From the NCBI GenBank assembly GCA_903953895.1, contig CAJBLH010000013.1, positions 38,064 to 102,063 on the forward strand: a stretch of 64,000 nt of DNA, written 5' to 3'. The translations under genes were made by a program, and so were the position numbers. Shown here in pieces: positions 441-22,246 of this stretch. Source of the DNA: an uncultured Desulfobacteraceae bacterium. Lineage in GTDB: Bacteria > Desulfobacterota > Desulfobacteria > Desulfobacterales > Desulfatirhabdiaceae. Each line of letters begins with the position of its first letter. The first letter of the stretch is position 1. Under the pieces are notes generated by a model. That model saw nothing but the letters and a program-made list of their open reading frames with translations, did no database searches and was not told the origin of the DNA.

Positions 441-1319
441 TTAACTGTCTGAAAATGCAAACAATCTGACCTTAACAATGATCTTTCTGTCGATCGAACC
501 GGCAAGGGCCTGTTTCACATCTTTTTTGATGGTCTCACCCTGGGAAACGGATATTTCGGCCGGAACATAGAGTTCTGTTTCAAATTCCATGTACTGGCCC
601 AGTTCCCTGGCAAAAATATTTTTGATACCACTGACGGTTTCTACTGTCTTTAGCGCTTTTTTCGCATTATCCAGAATTTCTTCATCAGGCGCCTTATCCA
701 AAAGATTCAATGAGGATTCTTTGATGTATTCGATACAAATCTTTAGAATAATCACGCCGACAACAGCCGCCGCCAGCGGGTCCATAAAGTGAAATCCCAT
801 CTTTGCGCCGATAATTCCGATCAATACCGCGATGGAGGCATAGACATCCGACCGGGATTCCCATGCTTTGGCCACCATCGATGGACTGTTGATCTGAGTG
901 CCGGCACAGACGCTTTGGCGAAACATGAGTTCGTTGATTAAAATAGCAATAATGGCGCCCCAGGCTGCCGACCAGCAAATAACAACCTTTCGTCCCTGAA
1001 CGATGCTCAGGATGCCCTCATAAATAATGAAGGAAGCAATCGCCATCAAGAACAAATAGATAATAATCGATACGATATATTCTATCTTTCCATACCCATA
1101 GGGATAATCGTCATCCTCTTGGCGGTCGGAAAGCCTCAATCCGATAATCATGACAAGCGTCGCCAAAAGATCGGCGCAGGAATGAACGGCATCGGCAATC
1201 AATCCTCTACTTTGGCCCACCACGCCCATATAGCCTTTGATCAGGATCATCAGGATATTGCCTACCACATTGACGACACCAACACTATCGGCGCATTTTC
1301 GGCATGCTCGGTATTTCAT
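441..1319 (-). CDS. mamB: Magnetosome cation diffusion facilitator, MamB-like
   Basis: CDF fold with N-terminal MKYRACRKCADSV (CxxC like MamB MKFENCRDC), LIADAVHSCADLLA and AWESRSDVYAS metal-site segments, YPYGYGKIEYI; neighbours mamQ, mamA, mamI. Confidence 0.8.
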   Translation of the reverse strand: MKYRACRKCADSVGVVNVVGNILMILIKGYMGVVGQSRGLIADAVHSCADLLATLVMIIGLRLSDRQEDDDYPYGYGKIEYIVSIIIYLFLMAIASFIIYEGILSIVQGRKVVICWSAAWGAIIAILINELMFRQSVCAGTQINSPSMVAKAWESRSDVYASIAVLIGIIGAKMGFHFMDPLAAAVVGVIILKICIEYIKESSLNLLDKAPDEEILDNAKKALKTVETVSGIKNIFARELGQYMEFETELYVPAEISVSQGETIKKDVKQALAGSIDRKIIVKVRLFAFSDS

Positions 1320-2039: not shown

Positions 2040-2945
2040 CTAATAATCAATCGGTTTAAACTGCGCGGCTTCACTGGTGGCCATATAGTAAGGCATAGGC
2101 GTAAAATTGAACATTTTCGCAAAAACATTGATCGGAAATTTGGTGATGATGGTCGTGTAGATGTTTACCATATCGTTGTATTTCAGTCTGGCAGTAGACA
2201 AATCCTTTTCTACATCGGTTATAGACGTCATCAGGGTCAGAAAGGGAGCTGACGATTTCAGGTCTGGATGATCTTCCGCCAATGCGAGCAAGCCTGAAAG
2301 CGGCTTCAGTTCGCTGATGAGCGTGTGCTTTGTTCCCGCAGGATATTCAGCCGTAATCCCTGTATTTTTTTTATGTTCGACCGCAGCGGAGGGTTCGGTT
2401 TTTACCGATGTCTGTGGTTTTGAATCCGCTGACCTGTCCTGAACCGGCCTTAGAGCCGCAGGATTGTCTGCATCGGCTTTCGCCTGCTGATCGTCGATCG
2501 GTGACAATTGCTGCTGGGTATGATCTCTAGTCATATCCGCTCGCATTTTAACGATGTTGGTCAACACCGTACTTTCATGGACCGTATAATGGTACACCGA
2601 CTTCGAAAGATTGACGGAAGTATCATGGCGCCGCTCCAACAAAGCGTTTACATTGCCCAATGCCGCCTGCACGTCATACTGAGCCGCAAGCATGAGGTTG
2701 AAATAATATGCAGAACCCACTGCCAGTAGAATAGCTGATGTAATCAGCGTGATACGGACCCAATGATTTTTGGTGAAAGCCACAAAGGGTTTCCATACGG
2801 TAAGATAAAATCGGTGCCTTGAAACCAGCTCATGCCGATCCTGTTCATACCGGTCTGATTCATACTGATCCTGTTCATATTGATCCAGACCATATATTCT
2901 GCCGTAAGCACTTTGAATGATATTCGAAATATTTCTATTCATCAT
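2040..2945 (-). CDS. mamQ: MamQ, LemA-family magnetosome protein
   Basis: One TM then LemA-like helical domain: YYFNLMLAAQYDVQAALGNVNALLERRHDTSVNLSKSV... TARLKYNDMVNIYTTIITKFPINVFAKMFNF. Confidence 0.85.
   Translation of the reverse strand: MMNRNISNIIQSAYGRIYGLDQYEQDQYESDRYEQDRHELVSRHRFYLTVWKPFVAFTKNHWVRITLITSAILLAVGSAYYFNLMLAAQYDVQAALGNVNALLERRHDTSVNLSKSVYHYTVHESTVLTNIVKMRADMTRDHTQQQLSPIDDQQAKADADNPAALRPVQDRSADSKPQTSVKTEPSAAVEHKKNTGITAEYPAGTKHTLISELKPLSGLLALAEDHPDLKSSAPFLTLMTSITDVEKDLSTARLKYNDMVNIYTTIITKFPINVFAKMFNFTPMPYYMATSEAAQFKPIDY
2826..2885 (-). repeat. 15-bp coding tandem repeat x4 in the mamQ N-terminus (DQYEQ/DQYES/DRYEQ/DRHEL)
   Basis: Seen directly: (ga[tc]c[ag][ag][tc]atga[ag]..) pentapeptide units in frame. 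Confidence 0.8.
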
Positions 2946-4366: not shown

Positions 4367-5131
4367 CTAATAATTGTCTTCATCGAGTTCGCGCTCTAAT
4401 TCCATCACCTTGGTAAAATGCTTGGCAGCAGCTTTATGATCGTCCTTACGCACGTTTAAAAAACCCAGATGTTGATGATATTTGATTTCCGTGGGATTGA
4501 GTTCTATGGCTTTTTTAACGGCTTCAATGGCTTTGTCGATTTCTCCCAACCCATCATAGGCAATCCCGATCAGATAATATACCTTGGGGTTGTCCGGTGT
4601 CTTTTCAGAAACCTTCTCCAATCCTTCTATGGCAGCCTGGTAATCCTTCAGCTTTAGGTGAAGGGAACTTTTTCGATACAGGGCGCCTTTATGCGTCGGG
4701 CTTAAAATCAAGACCTTTTTAAAAGCTTTGATGGCGCTATTGGTCTCACCGGCAGCACTCAGCGCCATTCCCAACTGATATTGAGCATCCGCGTCGGATG
4801 GGTCCAGCCGGGTCCATTCCTTGAGATAGCTCAAGGCTTTTTCTTGCAACCCCTTTTTGGTGTAATGGGTGCTGATATTACGGTAAATCATTGCCTTGTC
4901 TTTTGGGGTCAACGCAAAAAGGGAGTTGTAGGCATCCAGCGTCTTGTTTAAAACACGACCGCAAAAAAGAAGAAAGGCATGCGTATAAAAAGTGGCTGAA
5001 GGCCCAATGCGCTCCGCTCCAGAATGACTGGCCTGGGCTTTGTCCTTTTTTGTCTTGCCTGGCTTTTTGGGAACATCATTTTCTTCTATTTCCTGAACTT
5101 CTTCGTCGTCCTTAAAATCATCATTCATCAT
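4367..5131 (-). CDS. mamA: MamA, TPR magnetosome-associated protein
   Basis: ATFYTHAFLLFCGRVLNKTLDAYNSLF matches the MamA N-terminal region (LYTHYGLSVAKKLG..MVDAFRSAF) followed by TPRs; ORF opens at 5167, likely start MMNDDF 5131/5128. Confidence 0.85.
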   Translation of the reverse strand: MMNDDFKDDEEVQEIEENDVPKKPGKTKKDKAQASHSGAERIGPSATFYTHAFLLFCGRVLNKTLDAYNSLFALTPKDKAMIYRNISTHYTKKGLQEKALSYLKEWTRLDPSDADAQYQLGMALSAAGETNSAIKAFKKVLILSPTHKGALYRKSSLHLKLKDYQAAIEGLEKVSEKTPDNPKVYYLIGIAYDGLGEIDKAIEAVKKAIELNPTEIKYHQHLGFLNVRKDDHKAAAKHFTKVMELERELDEDNY

Positions 5132-5312
5132 TTTCCGATGCCTCCTCCTTTGTTTTTGGCGGTACAAAACCTGCCAATGTAGCTAACAGGCCTATTAACA
5201 TCATACAAATCGGAAGTCCTCCCTTGACGATATCGGCCACATAATAATATTCGTCATAAATTCCCCAGATTCCCAAAGCAAGAAAAAACAAACCTAGAAT
5301 AATATGCAGCAT
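5121..5312 (-). CDS. mamI: MamI, small two-TM magnetosome protein
   Basis: MLHIILGLFFLALGIWGIYDEYYYVADIVKGGLPICMMLIGLLATLAGFV, matches MamI size and pattern; first gene of the mam operon. Confidence 0.8.
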   Translation of the reverse strand: MLHIILGLFFLALGIWGIYDEYYYVADIVKGGLPICMMLIGLLATLAGFVPPKTKEEASENDE

Positions 5313-12248: not shown

Positions 12249-13091
12249 TTAACTCAGCAGCTTTATTGCCGTTGCCGACCTAAGCGCCACCTGTACCGCA
12301 GATAGAAGTTCACGATTATAAGCCCCAAGATTGACATAGGGGAAAATGCCGCTTTGCGGCCAGAAACTCCTGTGGCCGAAACAGTTGACCATCAGCAGTT
12401 CTTCCTTTGGTAACCGTTCAACTTCCAACCCGCTTGACGATAGTTTCGCCCTGAGATTCTCGATATCCCGAAAGCCTTTCCGGGGTCGTATCTTCATTCT
12501 GATCGGACTCATCGGGATAAGGATCGCCTCGCCATCAGCCGCCGCAAATGCCGCGTCACCCACTTTTTTCAGCTTCTGAAAATCGACATAATCGATAAGG
12601 GCAGCATTCCGGTCTCTGTTGATCACTCGCTGCTGAGCTTCCTCTACCGGACAGTCCAGATAAATGATCACGTCAAAGCTTTCGATAATCTGTGTTCTAA
12701 AAAGGCGTATGTTCTCGTAGATGCAGCCTGTTTTAAAGGGATACGGCTTTTTCATCTCCGATAGGTACAGCGTACGCCATTCAAGCCCCATCCGTTTGGC
12801 CAGACTTCTGCCCAACGTGCTTTTTCCGCTCCCAGGGGGGCCGTCGATACCGATGCACTGAGGAAACACCCGGTTTTGCTCCAGCACCAACATGATCTTG
12901 TCGGCATATTCTTCGACAGGTTGAACTTCTCCATAAGGTTTTTCCGCGCTGCCGGTAATCAATTTTCTGACCCGCCCCCGGATCGCGGATTTTATTGTCT
13001 CCCTGGACAGCAGGTTTATTGCCGCAGCCGTGATAAAAGCAAGGGCCATTTTCGGAAGGATTTCTTTCGTCAGGTCTTTCATGTCTCCCAT
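12249..13091 (-). CDS. Membrane-anchored P-loop kinase-like protein
   Basis: IGIDGPPGSGKSTLGRSLAKRMG (Walker A), FDVIIYLDCPVEEAQQRVINRDR; N-terminal hydrophobic segment. Confidence 0.75.
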   Translation of the reverse strand: MGDMKDLTKEILPKMALAFITAAAINLLSRETIKSAIRGRVRKLITGSAEKPYGEVQPVEEYADKIMLVLEQNRVFPQCIGIDGPPGSGKSTLGRSLAKRMGLEWRTLYLSEMKKPYPFKTGCIYENIRLFRTQIIESFDVIIYLDCPVEEAQQRVINRDRNAALIDYVDFQKLKKVGDAAFAAADGEAILIPMSPIRMKIRPRKGFRDIENLRAKLSSSGLEVERLPKEELLMVNCFGHRSFWPQSGIFPYVNLGAYNRELLSAVQVALRSATAIKLLS

Positions 13092-16013: not shown

Positions 16014-16118
16014 TACAAAAAAAGACTCGTTGAATCTTACACGCTTTCAACCGAGTGAAATAACACAATAGAACAAAAACATACCATGCAGGTAGAATAT
16101 GAATTCAATTGACAATAC

Positions 16119-16135
16119 GCTATCCTTCTGATAGC
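16119..16135. promoter_or_regulatory. Inverted repeat in the divergent intergenic region, similar to the 14489 site
   Basis: gctatccttctgatagc; shares CCTTCTGAT[T/A]GCAAA with 14494 onward. Confidence 0.5.
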
Positions 16136-16147
16136 AAAATACCTGCA

Positions 16148-17449
16148 ATGACTGAAAAAGAACACATCATCGAAGACGAAATCCCAGAAAATTATGCCAC
16201 CGAAAAAGGAGCCTGGCCGCTTATGTTTGTAATGGGCTGTCTTTTGCTGTTGGGACTTGGCATACCCATCCTGCTGATTTATTACATAAAATCTCCACCC
16301 ATCGATCAACTAATGCCGATAATGGGGATATCCTATTCCAAGTTGGTGTATATTTTCCTGGTGAGTACGGCAATTATTACTTACGCATCGGTTTTATTTC
16401 TCAGAGCCAGGCCCATTATCATCTTTCCGGTTTTTGTGATATTATTATATTGCTGCTTTCCATTCATTGTTGGGCTTCGCAACAACCTGCCAATCAAGGA
16501 AGCCATCATCGATACGCCGCTTTTATCACATCTGCCTTTTTTCATAAAGCCGGCCTATCTTTTTTTCGAATTTTTTGTTCCAACTGGAATTCTCATTTGT
16601 TTATTTTTGCAAATTAAAAATATTTTGTCGAAAAAATCAACTTCCTTTGCTTTTTTAAGCCTGGCGTGTTTTCTGGGAACCGCCGCCGTCTTAGGATCTT
16701 CAATATTGACTCAGGCAGGCATTCCTAATCTTGTTACAATCGCCAAATGGTCGAATCCCAATCTTTCCATCAAACAAAACCTGCAACAAGCCTATCCCAT
16801 TCCAGATGAAAACCAGTTATTGTCTTCAACCGCAGAAATTGAGTCACCCGCCAATACGTTTCGAGTTCCGGGCATCGATAGGGAACCTGCCGGACAACCG
16901 GATACAGCAACACTTCGATCAGCCGTGGCTATTCCCAAAGAAGTTTCAACGATGCATGAAATCGATCAAAAATTTCAGCAGCTATCTGCAAAACTGGATC
17001 ACCTTATCGATATCATGCGTCAGAAGCCGTCATCACAGCAAAATGGTCGAGATCAGTTGGCGCCGGCCAATGCAGCCGACCTATCCAAACACAACGAACC
17101 GCCTGCCGCTTCCCTGTCGGCGGCCAAATTGGTTGAAAATAAAACCGATGAGGAAACTCTCGAACAAAAACTGCAGCAGGTATCCACGCGATTGAACGGA
17201 ATCGCCGATACAATTTCGCGTATCGAAACTTTGCTGCCCAAACAGACTTTAGATCAACAGAAATCGCCGGATTTCACTCCCCCGGCTCTTGCAGAACTCC
17301 AAACACAAAGTGTAACAGAGAACGCACCTCTTTCAACGACCAAGGATATCACTCAGGAACTATCGCTCATTTCAACAAAAGTCGATCAAATACTGGAAGC
17401 ACTTTCCCATGATAAGAAACCACACAGGTCGCTTCCCAAAAAACAATGA
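16148..17449 (+). CDS. Multi-TM protein with C-terminal coiled-coil repeats
   Basis: ORF 16109..17449, likely start MTEKEHIIED at 16148; about 6 TM then HEIDQKFQQLSAKLDHLIDIM / LEQKLQQVSTRLNGIADTISRIETLL / ITQELSLISTKVDQILEAL. Confidence 0.75.
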   Translation: MTEKEHIIEDEIPENYATEKGAWPLMFVMGCLLLLGLGIPILLIYYIKSPPIDQLMPIMGISYSKLVYIFLVSTAIITYASVLFLRARPIIIFPVFVILLYCCFPFIVGLRNNLPIKEAIIDTPLLSHLPFFIKPAYLFFEFFVPTGILICLFLQIKNILSKKSTSFAFLSLACFLGTAAVLGSSILTQAGIPNLVTIAKWSNPNLSIKQNLQQAYPIPDENQLLSSTAEIESPANTFRVPGIDREPAGQPDTATLRSAVAIPKEVSTMHEIDQKFQQLSAKLDHLIDIMRQKPSSQQNGRDQLAPANAADLSKHNEPPAASLSAAKLVENKTDEETLEQKLQQVSTRLNGIADTISRIETLLPKQTLDQQKSPDFTPPALAELQTQSVTENAPLSTTKDITQELSLISTKVDQILEALSHDKKPHRSLPKKQ

Positions 17450-17487
17450 ATCCGGTGTTACTTTTTCTGTAAAGGAGTTGCAAGACT

Positions 17488-19062
17488 ATGTCCGATAAGG
17501 AAGAATCTGAAGCAATCTCTGCCAGACTTCAGTTGTTACAGGACAACTTGGCCGAAGCCGTACGGCTGGCCGAAGTTTTTTACACAGGACAGGTAGAGGC
17601 TCAAAATGCGGCACAACAGGCACTAAAAGAAAAAACAGAACTCGAACAACGGATACAAACACTCCTGAATGAAAAATCAGTTGCTGCGGAAACAGCAGAT
17701 GATGTTGATATCGCCCCATTGTTAGCGGAATGTGAAGCGTTACAAAAACGAATTCATGAGCTTGAGAACAATTTGGCTGAAGCCCAAAGCTTGTTGGAAA
17801 CGAGGCTGAAGGAAATCAACGACTTTCAAGCCCGCATCGATCAGGCTCTGACTGAAAAGGCAGATGTTGAAAACCTGAGACGGGGCTTGCGGGATGAAAA
17901 TGTTCGAGTACAAAACGAGATGGTTAAGCTTGAAACCCGTGTGGAAACGGAATGCAATGCACTGAAAGACAAAATTCAGGCGCTTGAAACAAATTTGCGT
18001 ACTGCCGAAAGCCGGGCTGAAACAACCCAAAGAGAAAAGAGCGCTGCAGACGAAAAGATAGAGGCCATCACCGTAGAGAAAAAAACGCTTGAAAACAAAT
18101 ATGAAGATGCATTTACGGGTAAAATTGATGCGGAAAAAGAACTGCGTGCTGCGACCAAGATAAACGAGACCTTAACGATTCAACTGGAGGAGTGCAATAA
18201 ACGGTTGCACAGTCCGATTTCTAAAGTTGCGATGGCTGTGGTGGTGTTGCTTGCCCTGGCCTTGCTTGGATATTCCATCTTTCTTTTCCAGAGCTATCCG
18301 AACCGGTTGGTAAACGTCGATAGACAACTCGAAACATTGGTTACCCGCTTTGAAGACAAGACCCAACTTTTTGATGTGATCAGCCAGGGCCAGAAACAAA
18401 TGTCGGCAAAGCTCGACGAAATTTATCAGGAAGTGGAAATTATCGGCAAAAAGGCCGGCATTCAAATCGGAGCGCCAGGATCGGAAAAACATCCTTCGGA
18501 TACGGGCTTCTCAGGATTGACAGATCGGATTGACAGGCTGGAAAAAGCATTAAGCGACCTGCCTACAGGTCGGATTGCCTGGCAGGAAGAGGTGGATGCA
18601 TTACGCAAGAAAGTGGCCGATCTGGAAAAACAGCGCAAACAATTAGAGATAGAAAAGGCCAAATCATTTCTTCCGGAAGACCGACACTTTAAAATTCTTA
18701 CCGAAGTCTATTTTGATTCGGGTGAAACCAGACTGTCGGAAAAAGCTGCTGAAAATATAAAAACAATCGCTGAAAAAATCAAAAAAAAACCGGATATCCC
18801 CATTCGTATTGAAGGCCATTCCGATGACAAGCCCTTGCGTTGGACTATTTTTGATAGATTCAGCAACAATATGGAATTATCCATAGACCGTGGCGCAACT
18901 GTAGCCAGCATTTTAATCAAAGCCGGCGTAGATGCCAGTCAGATCAGTATCATCGGCGTCGGCCCGGCCCGGCCTGTCTCATCGAATGATAGTTCTGAAG
19001 GTAGGGCAAAAAACCGTAGAGTGGAAATCAAAATGATGGATAGCCCCAATGATTTGGGTTAA
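17488..19062 (+). CDS. Long coiled-coil, single-TM, OmpA-domain protein
   Basis: N-terminal heptad-rich region, TM VAMAVVVLLALALLGYSIFLF, C-term VYFDSGETRLSEKAAENIKTIAEKI...IEGHSDDKPL...AKNRRVEIKM (OmpA). Confidence 0.88.
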   Translation: MSDKEESEAISARLQLLQDNLAEAVRLAEVFYTGQVEAQNAAQQALKEKTELEQRIQTLLNEKSVAAETADDVDIAPLLAECEALQKRIHELENNLAEAQSLLETRLKEINDFQARIDQALTEKADVENLRRGLRDENVRVQNEMVKLETRVETECNALKDKIQALETNLRTAESRAETTQREKSAADEKIEAITVEKKTLENKYEDAFTGKIDAEKELRAATKINETLTIQLEECNKRLHSPISKVAMAVVVLLALALLGYSIFLFQSYPNRLVNVDRQLETLVTRFEDKTQLFDVISQGQKQMSAKLDEIYQEVEIIGKKAGIQIGAPGSEKHPSDTGFSGLTDRIDRLEKALSDLPTGRIAWQEEVDALRKKVADLEKQRKQLEIEKAKSFLPEDRHFKILTEVYFDSGETRLSEKAAENIKTIAEKIKKKPDIPIRIEGHSDDKPLRWTIFDRFSNNMELSIDRGATVASILIKAGVDASQISIIGVGPARPVSSNDSSEGRAKNRRVEIKMMDSPNDLG

Positions 19063-19094
19063 ATCAACTATTTAACTGATATGAATTACTCCAT

Positions 19095-20909
19095 ATGATA
19101 TTACGAATTCTTTTGATCGTATTCCTGAGTTTGATCTGCCAGGATATTCCCCTTGCTTTTCCGGCAGCACCACTGGAAGAGCTGCAGAAAAATGTAAATC
19201 AGGCAACCGCCAATGTGATGCAGTCCGTTGTCAGCGTCAAGGCTCAAAAACAAAGCCAGACCGGTATATTGTACGAGAGTATCGGCTCAGGCTTCGTTGT
19301 TGACGAAAGAGGTTATGTTTTAACCAATCTACATGTGGTTGAAAATGCACAAAATATTACGATATCCCAATGGCGGATCGGTCCGAATGTTATCTCCGCA
19401 ACACTGATGAATACCGATGAATCTTTGGATCTTGCCCTCCTAAAGATTGAAAGCAATGGTATATTCAAGCCTGCACCGCTTGACAATTCCGACCAATTGA
19501 AAATCGGCAACCTGGTGATATGCGTCGGAAGCCCTTTTGGTTTTAAACATAGCGTCACTTTCGGAATTATCAGTGATCTGCATCGAGAAATCGTGATACA
19601 AGGGTTGACATACCAGGATATGATCCAGACCGATGCTGTGATTAACGAAGGCAACAGCGGGGGGCCGATCGTCAATATATTCGGCAGGGTAATCGGTGTT
19701 GGAACTGCTATTTATGCGCCGGACGGCACCTATACCGGGATAGGCTTCGGCATTCCGATAAACCGGGCAAAACATTTTTTCTCGCAAACAACAGGGGCTG
19801 TTCTTGCTGCGGCTACGGCCCCGCTTCCCGCCGCCAATCCCAAAGAGCCGGTCGATATCAACACGAAAATTCCTGACGATCAAATACACAGGCAGTTTTC
19901 TGATTGCAGAGAATGCCATGTGATTTCGGCCAAAAGTGTTGTCACCGTTCAGGCAACCCTGCCCCATCTTCCACTGGAGGGATGCAGCGATTGTCACATT
20001 CTGACAAATGATAAGGTTGCAACAGCTCCGATTACCGTTGCGATGAACGTTCCAAAGCAGATTCCCAGTTTTTTGCAATTTGGATTTTTTGTCCGGTCAA
20101 CCATCCTGATCCTGTTCGGTTTGGTCGTAGGAACTGTTGGCACAATGGTAGGCGTCGGTGGAGGTTTTATTCATGTACCATTTTTAATGCTTGTTTGTGG
20201 TTTTTCCGTTCAGGATGCGATCGGCACATCGATAGGGATTATTTTTTTCAATACAACCGCTGGCTCATTCATGTATTATCATCAAAAATGTATCGATCTC
20301 GATCTGGCAAAAAAACTCTCTTTGATCGTTATCCCCGGAGCTATTTTAGGGCCGCTGATTGTACAGCAATATAACAATTCCTGGTATCTTGTCGTATTTA
20401 CCCTGTTGCTCTTCGTAATCTCCTGTTATTTGTTTTTTACCAACTCGCAGATAAATGTGCTTCCTGAGTTTCGATATAACCGGCGTGTGACGATAGAAGA
20501 TATCGATGGAAATAAAATATCTTATTCAACCAATATCGGGCTGAGCTATATCGGCACATTTATTATCGGCTTTTTTTCAAACCTGATCGGTATCGGTGGC
20601 GGTATTATCCATGTTCCTTTTCTGATTCTGTTTTTAAGAATTCCGGTTCATATCGCGCTTGGCACTTCTCATTTCATTCTGTGTGTATCGTCTTTTGCGG
20701 GAATGATCATGTTCGGGATTTTGGGTAATATCCATTTCGACTATATGATGCCGATTGCTGTGGGGGCCATATTGGGAGCAAAAATCGGCGTGGAGCTTTC
20801 AAAATTGACCAGTCCTGTCGTTATCAGAAAAATGCTGGCGTTGATTCTATTTTTTATCACTTTCAGAATCTTTATTAAACAGATAACTACCATTATGACG
20901 ATTCAATGA
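19095..20909 (+). CDS. MamEO-type fusion: trypsin-like protease + two CxxCH + TauE/SafE transporter
   Basis: TNLHVVENA (His), ESLDLALLKI (Asp), NEGNSGGPIVN (Ser); CRECH and CSDCH; C-term VGTVGTMVGVGGGFIHVPFLMLV...NLIGIGGGIIHVPFLILF TauE repeats. Confidence 0.88.
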   Translation: MILRILLIVFLSLICQDIPLAFPAAPLEELQKNVNQATANVMQSVVSVKAQKQSQTGILYESIGSGFVVDERGYVLTNLHVVENAQNITISQWRIGPNVISATLMNTDESLDLALLKIESNGIFKPAPLDNSDQLKIGNLVICVGSPFGFKHSVTFGIISDLHREIVIQGLTYQDMIQTDAVINEGNSGGPIVNIFGRVIGVGTAIYAPDGTYTGIGFGIPINRAKHFFSQTTGAVLAAATAPLPAANPKEPVDINTKIPDDQIHRQFSDCRECHVISAKSVVTVQATLPHLPLEGCSDCHILTNDKVATAPITVAMNVPKQIPSFLQFGFFVRSTILILFGLVVGTVGTMVGVGGGFIHVPFLMLVCGFSVQDAIGTSIGIIFFNTTAGSFMYYHQKCIDLDLAKKLSLIVIPGAILGPLIVQQYNNSWYLVVFTLLLFVISCYLFFTNSQINVLPEFRYNRRVTIEDIDGNKISYSTNIGLSYIGTFIIGFFSNLIGIGGGIIHVPFLILFLRIPVHIALGTSHFILCVSSFAGMIMFGILGNIHFDYMMPIAVGAILGAKIGVELSKLTSPVVIRKMLALILFFITFRIFIKQITTIMTIQ

Positions 20910-22246
20910 AAAGTGAACCGAGCAGTTTTTATTTTTTAAAAAAACCAGACCGGCCACCTGTTCAAATCAAAAAAACATCCAATACATCCGAGACCAAGCT
21001 GTCTGTGCCTTTGTCGCTGATTCAATACAACAATCCCTTCGATGAAATTGAATATCTTTCCACCTCGATACGAGCCAGAGGGCATATTCCGATCGTCTGG
21101 TCCAAAGCCAGGGGCTTGATGGTCAATCACCTATCCAGAGCCTATCCGCTATTTGACGGTTTCAATGTTGCTGGTTTAAACGACCCTTTGGAAGTGATCA
21201 AATTTATAATCAGTAAACCCCAGGAGTGTATCTCCTATATTTTTGAAGACTTTCATCACTACATCGGTGAAAAAGATACCATCAACCCGGTGGTTGGTGA
21301 AATCCGTTCTCTGATCAAAGAATTATACCGCAATTTAACAGGTCGAAATGAAAGCGTTTTTTTGTTTGTACCCCGTTCATATGAACTGCCGCCCGAGCTG
21401 CAACCTTTTTTCGCCCAATCAATCCCAAAATCTCTAAAAAAAACCAAAGGATACCTGGATCGCTATGGCATGCTTTTAACAGATGCCGAATTTCTTTCGC
21501 ACACAAAGCCCATGATCGGTGCGGATACTCTGATCGAGCGGCTGCTTCAGGTATTATCCCAGATGGAGACGAACAACCCCCTGCTGGTAGGCCCCCCCGG
21601 CGTGGGGAAAACCGCTGTGGTTGAAGGTCTTGCCAGAATGATCTACTCGGGAAAAGTACATCCCAGTCTTCATGGAAAGGCGTTGTATTCGCTTTCATTA
21701 AACAGTCTCATCGCCGGTACACGCTATCGCGGAGACCTTGAAGACCGGCTCGAATGCTTGATGGAGGAAGTACTTCATAAAAAAGATAAGGTCATCATTT
21801 TTATCGACGAGATTCATACTTTGATTGAAGCCGGCGCAACTGAAGGCGGCATGGGCCCCGCTGATATTTTAAAACCGGTGCTTGCCCGCGGAGAATTTCC
21901 CTGTATCGGCGCGACAACTCCAGCAGGAGCAGAATGCTTTGCCAAAGACCCAGCCTTGATGAGACGATTCAAAAAAATTATGGTTCATGAACCATCGGTC
22001 GATCAGTCACTTGCCATATTGAGGGGGATTATCACCTGTTTTGAAAATCACCACCGATTACAGGTCGATGATGATGCATTGGCTACAGCGGTGATGATGA
22101 GTAACAAGCATATCGTCGGTGAATATCTTCCGGGCAAGGCCATCTCGCTGGTTGACGGCGCTGCCGCCTTATGCAGCATGCAGGGCAAAAACAGGGTTAC
22201 AAGCAAAGACATATTGGTTGAAATGGAACGGTTGTTGATGGCTTAG
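20906..22246 (+). CDS. AAA+ ATPase: Ycf46-like N-terminal domain + ClpA/B D1-type AAA
   Basis: LLVGPPGVGKTAVVEGLARMI, VIIFIDEIHTLIEAGATEGGMGPADILKPVLARGE; no second AAA domain; ATGA overlap with the MamEO-type gene. Confidence 0.88.
   Translation: MKSEPSSFYFLKKPDRPPVQIKKTSNTSETKLSVPLSLIQYNNPFDEIEYLSTSIRARGHIPIVWSKARGLMVNHLSRAYPLFDGFNVAGLNDPLEVIKFIISKPQECISYIFEDFHHYIGEKDTINPVVGEIRSLIKELYRNLTGRNESVFLFVPRSYELPPELQPFFAQSIPKSLKKTKGYLDRYGMLLTDAEFLSHTKPMIGADTLIERLLQVLSQMETNNPLLVGPPGVGKTAVVEGLARMIYSGKVHPSLHGKALYSLSLNSLIAGTRYRGDLEDRLECLMEEVLHKKDKVIIFIDEIHTLIEAGATEGGMGPADILKPVLARGEFPCIGATTPAGAECFAKDPALMRRFKKIMVHEPSVDQSLAILRGIITCFENHHRLQVDDDALATAVMMSNKHIVGEYLPGKAISLVDGAAALCSMQGKNRVTSKDILVEMERLLMA

Follow-up and report, generated by a model that had tools for sequence, protein, structure and literature searches.

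A probable Mad27 ATPase in magnetosome gene clusters joins a Ycf46-type N-domain to a single Clp D1 module

Introduction

What kind of motor is encoded by an AAA+ gene that overlaps a magnetosome protease gene, and does it serve the protease or the magnetosome chain? The gene lies in a 64,000-nucleotide stretch of DNA from an uncultured Desulfobacteraceae bacterium, the whole of which is here called the window. The original prediction described it as a hybrid of a Ycf46-like and a Clp-type ATPase that was tied to the protease and had an architecture not known from magnetosome clusters. In deep-branching magnetotactic bacteria the chain rests on a coiled-coil and actin network, and the literature searched describes no energy-driven remodelling factor for it. 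In RS-1, the magnetosome chains are organised by a network of interactions among Mad20, Mad23, Mad25, Mad26, Mad28 and MamK (PMC12748827). A role in energising the assembly of chain bundles has been proposed for Mad27, one of the proteins credited with an ATPase domain (PMC9840458).

Results

The AAA+ gene closes a four-gene run

The open reading frame was placed exactly at 20906-22246 on the plus strand, where an intact frame encodes a protein of 446 aa, the probable Mad27, which we followed through its translation, family alignments (A1 and A3) and an AF2 model (pLDDT 79.7). No transmembrane (TM) segment or signal sequence was found in this protein. Its gene is the last in a run of four (16109-22246), which begins with a multi-TM protein carrying a C-terminal coiled coil (16109..17449, +), relatives of which lie near Mad27 in Desulfamplus MAGs. 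The second gene of the same operon (17488..19062, +) encodes a protein with a coiled coil, one TM segment and a C-terminal OmpA/peptidoglycan-binding domain, and the third (19095..20909, +) encodes a MamEO-like protein with an N-terminal membrane/signal segment, an HtrA protease and a TauE domain. The MamEO-like protein retains intact protease triad motifs and two magnetochrome-like CxxCH motifs; Pfam matched it with Trypsin_2 and TauE, and the NCBIfam MamE/MamO models matched below the full-length cut-off. Given the N-terminal segment and the haem motifs, the protease domain should be lumenal or periplasmic. The ATG of the AAA+ gene shares the letters ATGA with the stop codon of the MamEO-like gene, and translation of the two is therefore probably coupled.

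The magnetosome context that had been predicted was borne out by this MamEO-like gene and by three further genes of the window, encoding MamA (TPR; 4367..5167, -; NCBIfam MamA 273 bits, cut-off 200), a MamQ-like protein (LemA; 2040..2945, -) and a MamB/MamM-type cation diffusion facilitator (441..1319, -; below the equivalog cut-off). The same contig encodes MamK (467 bits, cut-off 400), MamA, Mad23-26, Mad28 and FeoB. The Mad23-28 genes lie about 40 kb from the AAA+ gene, the window copy being a relocated one.

The N-terminal half resembles the degenerate N-domain of Ycf46-type ATPases

Nothing in residues 1-180 was named by Pfam, NCBIfam or PADLOC. When 291 genomes of the order were searched with the N-terminal half, seven strong carriers and some weak matches were returned, and one of the weak matches was to a Ycf46-type protein with tandem AAA domains (L039). 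We then compared a profile of 14 family N-domains with the N-domains of 15 proteins, which we class as Ycf46-type by the architecture of that family. The two profiles aligned with a probability of 97.8% and an E-value of 1.1e-12 (hhalign), while the best of 50 column-shuffled controls reached 1.1%. Moreover, every one of the 16 members was matched by the Ycf46-N HMM, at E-values of 3e-13 to 9e-5 (Z = 10000), whereas none of the reversed or Clp sequences was, and the divergent member from G382 (L079, YLLEDFHYYL) was still found by both profiles. These profile, shuffle and HMM results place the likeness to Ycf46 well beyond chance.

The domain covers residues ~35-175 (21008..21430, +), as delimited by hhalign, the HMM and its own model. 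Modelled alone with AlphaFold, it took an AAA core fold (pLDDT 81.8), which matched p97 D1 with a Z-score of 11.8; p97 D1, Rix7 and FtsH all scored about 11-12 over ~128 residues. No Ycf46 chain was among the matches of the fold searches, which is not evidence against a relation, and the profile found no sequence relative among solved structures (best E 0.027, spurious). The position of Walker A is occupied by YNNPFDEI, so no P-loop is present. The EDFHH motif (residues 114-118; 21245..21259, +; alignments A3 and A4) forms a Walker-B-like strand that coincides with the Walker B position; across the 16 N-domains of A4, four of the five residues never vary and the second His is kept in at least 90%. 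The helical lid of Ycf46 N-domains is missing in the family, and the D1 module comes directly after the N-domain. On profile and model grounds, then, this domain is a homologue of the P-loop-less Ycf46 N-domain, in line with the original prediction.

The C-terminal half is a single Clp D1-type module

The ClpA/B D1-type AAA+ module with its small lid extends over residues ~180-433 (21443..22204, +), as defined by profiles, PDB matches and a tree. Over residues ~180-430 the NCBIfam profiles of ClpB (E 4e-82), ClpA (2e-81) and ClpV/TssH (8e-74) matched, Pfam identified AAA plus AAA_lid_9, and the best PDB relatives were the D1 domains of ClpC1 and ClpB (E ~1e-65, ~45% identity). The chain stops 29 aa past the lid motif LPGKAISLVD, and a second AAA module (D2), the ClpB M-domain and the ClpP-docking loop are absent; neither Pfam nor NCBIfam matched a Clp_N domain in the protein. 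The predicted single module, with no D2 and no peptidase-docking loop, was thereby confirmed.

The motor motifs comprise Walker A (GPPGVGKT, residues 229-236; 21590..21613, +), pore loop 1 with its aromatic kept (GTRYRGD, residues 271-277; 21716..21736, +), Walker B (VIIFIDEIH, residues 296-304; 21791..21817, +) and, invariant in A3, an arginine-finger pair RR (residues 353-354; 21962..21967, +) within DPALMRRF. The family conserves sensor 1, both Walker motifs and the arginine fingers, and nearly all members keep an aromatic residue in the pore loop; in a simple motif scan of 16 members, one divergent sequence gave no Walker B match and one other sequence no pore-loop match. Judged by these motifs, the D1 domain is catalytically complete. 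In a tree of D1 modules only, taken from the family and from ClpA and ClpB of relatives, the family branched with full support as a separate clade, apart from the ClpA and ClpB D1 clades that were sampled.

The architecture recurs in magnetosome clusters of Desulfobacterota

About 16 relatives share the same two-part build (414-671 aa), all of them in Desulfobacterota and, in the neighbourhood survey, nearly all beside mam/mad genes; the architecture is therefore not an oddity of the window. When 84,980 species genomes were scanned, 14 loci were recovered, all from Desulfobacterota and several from Desulfamplus, including D. magnetovallimortis; RS-1 was not among the genomes matched. A phylum-level search added G306, G377 and G382. 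Most relatives carry a further N-terminal extension, which the window copy does not have. The closest relative, G006, retains it.

Among the 291 genomes of the order, MamK and Mad28 were encoded in all seven carriers (p = 3.7e-12, only indicative, as the genomes share kinship). Ten of the 291 encode both a MamK that passes the cut-off and a close Mad28 (E below 1e-100), all seven carriers among them, and no counterpart was detected with a wider profile in the other three (G091, G269 and G287). The protein is therefore accessory and not needed for every chain.

The linkage is to the magnetosome cluster and not to the protease

In D. magnetovallimortis (L053) the genes are ordered mad23-24-25-26, the AAA+ gene and, further on, mad28. 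A Mad26-like gene lies immediately upstream of the family gene in D. magnetovallimortis (L053/L035) and at L054 and L034. Other members stand near Mad28 with a TauE gene (G306), MamK (G046), a DtxR/FeoA-type gene (L051) or TauE-type transporter genes (L052, L078 and L079), and in Desulfamplus MAGs near MamA, a MamQ-like protein, a multihaem protein and MamB. In many relatives the family gene is directly downstream of a coiled-coil gene, often with overlapping frames; coiled-coil proteins, actin-like Mad28/MamK, Mad23-26 and TauE-type proteins are the recurrent neighbours. A MamEO gene was found upstream only in the window, directly, and in G006, with a cassette in between. The association is with the magnetosome cluster and not with the protease, and the tie to a magnetosome protease in the original prediction proved weak.

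Several further observations were made at these loci. In G006, the cassette that separates MamEO from the Mad27 gene (L029 4891-6880) consists of a type II restriction enzyme and a methyltransferase. In G382, Mad27 (L079 3568-5583) has an N-terminus homologous (31% identity, E 4e-15) to a 128-aa free-standing mad-cluster protein of G306 (L078 5104-5490). This fusion with an otherwise separate mad-cluster gene marks the small protein as a likely further partner of Mad27. The single-TM protein with coiled coil and OmpA domain (window 17488-19062; L032 5190-6791) precedes Mad27 either directly or with MamEO in between, and it is possible that it anchors the cytosolic scaffold to the cell wall. 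A deoxynucleoside-kinase-like P-loop protein (window 12249-13091, minus strand) shares 49% identity with one at L033 4425-5369, both in regions of magnetosome genes, and is possibly a further cluster-associated gene. The Mad28-like actin at L035 11434-12645 matches Pfam Volactin, an archaeal actin, with E 1e-79, and many genomes of the order that lack MamK carry relatives of it, which suggests that a broader family of bacterial volactin-like proteins was the source of Mad28. Finally, two Mad27 copies each occur in nHLHbin7 (L047 and L054), with one near mamAB-type genes and the other after mad26, and in ER2bin7 (L033 and L034). MMP XL-1 is likewise reported with two copies, and such duplicates possibly belong to separate magnetite and greigite sets.

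Discussion

Identity of the gene

Since the D. magnetovallimortis gene that follows mad26 and precedes mad28 belongs to the family, the AAA+ gene is very probably the Desulfobacterota mad27, an assignment made by synteny. mad27 adjoins mad26, and in MMP XL-1 mad27-2 comes after mad26-2 (PMC9145555). Besides this place, the family shares with Mad27 an ATPase domain and the length class, whereas the window copy differs in having no N-terminal extension and in following a MamEO-like gene where mad26 would be usual. The mad27 of FSS-1 (1527 bp) is outside the main cluster (PMC7951924), and in both cases a relocated copy has been retained. In the literature searched, there was no report of a Ycf46-N/Clp-D1 architecture, none of the papers naming Mad27 mentions AAA, and ClpA was nowhere mentioned alongside magnetosome Mad genes. 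An architecture unheard of in magnetosome clusters thus turned out to recur in about 16 loci under what is probably an existing gene name; that literature describes neither its build nor how it is likely to act.

A candidate remodelling motor for the chain scaffold

We favour a soluble Mad27 motor, with a live Clp D1 and an inactive Ycf46-type domain, that would remodel the chain scaffold, since the recurrent neighbours are coiled-coil proteins and actin-like Mad28/MamK; we put this at about even odds (roughly 0.5), clients and role being inferred. If it behaves like other Clp D1 rings, Mad27 would form an ATP-driven hexamer whose aromatic pore loop pulls or threads the client chain. Given that D2 and the ClpP-docking loop are absent, clients would be remodelled or disassembled rather than handed over for degradation. 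The pseudo-AAA N-domain, with the N-terminal extension of most relatives, is likely the part that binds clients or adaptors and organises the ring, and the cytosolic motor may act on the coiled-coil and actin-like scaffold. Against this reading, a Clp D1 ring on its own may work only weakly as a motor, the nearest coiled-coil partner in the window bears an OmpA domain, and the Mad23-28 genes are distant. More tentatively, we propose that deep-branching magnetotactic bacteria possess a dedicated ClpV-like motor of this architecture that disassembles or redistributes the actin and coiled-coil chain scaffold. If true, a conserved, magnetosome-specific motor with a testable ATPase, a distinctive domain for clients or adaptors and named candidate clients in the genetically tractable RS-1 would be the missing remodelling factor.

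Four other explanations were weighed. An assembly chaperone or quality-control disaggregase acting as holdase or refolding factor on magnetosome proteins generally would suit a D1 of ClpB type and a linkage to the whole cluster instead of one partner. We hold it unlikely, though worth keeping in view, as the D2 and the M-domain for cooperation with DnaK are lacking and the neighbours are biased toward coiled-coil and actin genes. A Ycf46-like regulatory or membrane-remodelling ATPase, whose targets might be, for example, vesicle proteins or proteins of iron uptake and whose Clp domain would supply generic motor activity, is quite unlikely; it would account for the N-domain held in common with Ycf46-type ATPases and for the TauE-type and FeoA-type genes near some members, but coiled-coil and actin neighbours are equally common or commoner and the role of Ycf46 is itself poorly defined.

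The gene overlap with MamEO, the ClpA-type D1 and the repeated order of MamEO then Mad27 in G006 would fit a Clp-like degradation machine of two parts, in which the AAA+ protein unfolds substrates and passes them to the neighbouring MamEO or another protease. This was rejected on topology, the MamEO protease domain being predicted to face the lumen or periplasm and the AAA+ protein, with neither TM segment nor signal, the cytosol; with no docking loop, no D2 and no adjacent protease in most relatives, we consider it very improbable. That the gene is a common housekeeping Clp/Ycf46-type ATPase near magnetosome genes by chance, an outcome the original prediction had allowed for, is scarcely credible: Clp D1 homologues are present in nearly every genome searched, but the combined architecture occurs only in the seven MamK- and Mad28-positive carriers of the order, beside mam/mad genes at nearly all loci, and the window's own genome encodes separate ClpA and ClpB.

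Comparison with known ATPase systems

The remodelling motor that we favour shares with ClpA, ClpB and ClpC (Hsp100 class 1) the D1 AAA+ module, its lid, the motor motifs and ~45% identity, but not Clp_N, the M-domain, D2 or the ClpP loop, and a degenerate AAA fold stands where Clp proteins have Clp_N. With Ycf46-type ATPases it shares a degenerate N-terminal AAA domain of signature W..G...DP...L..I...YI.[ED]DFH before an active AAA domain. However, the Ycf46-type C-terminus is a classical AAA domain with AAA_lid_3, replaced here by a Clp D1 with AAA_lid_9, and the lid of the Ycf46 N-domain is missing. A Clp D1 would here be redeployed as a lone motor, with an unrelated pseudo-AAA domain in front of it. 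The closest parallel in action, as a functional analogy only, would be ClpV/TssH, the recycler of the type VI sheath, a protease-free Clp-type motor that disassembles a dedicated polymer, although ClpV, unlike the protein described here, has a D2 and an N-domain of its own.
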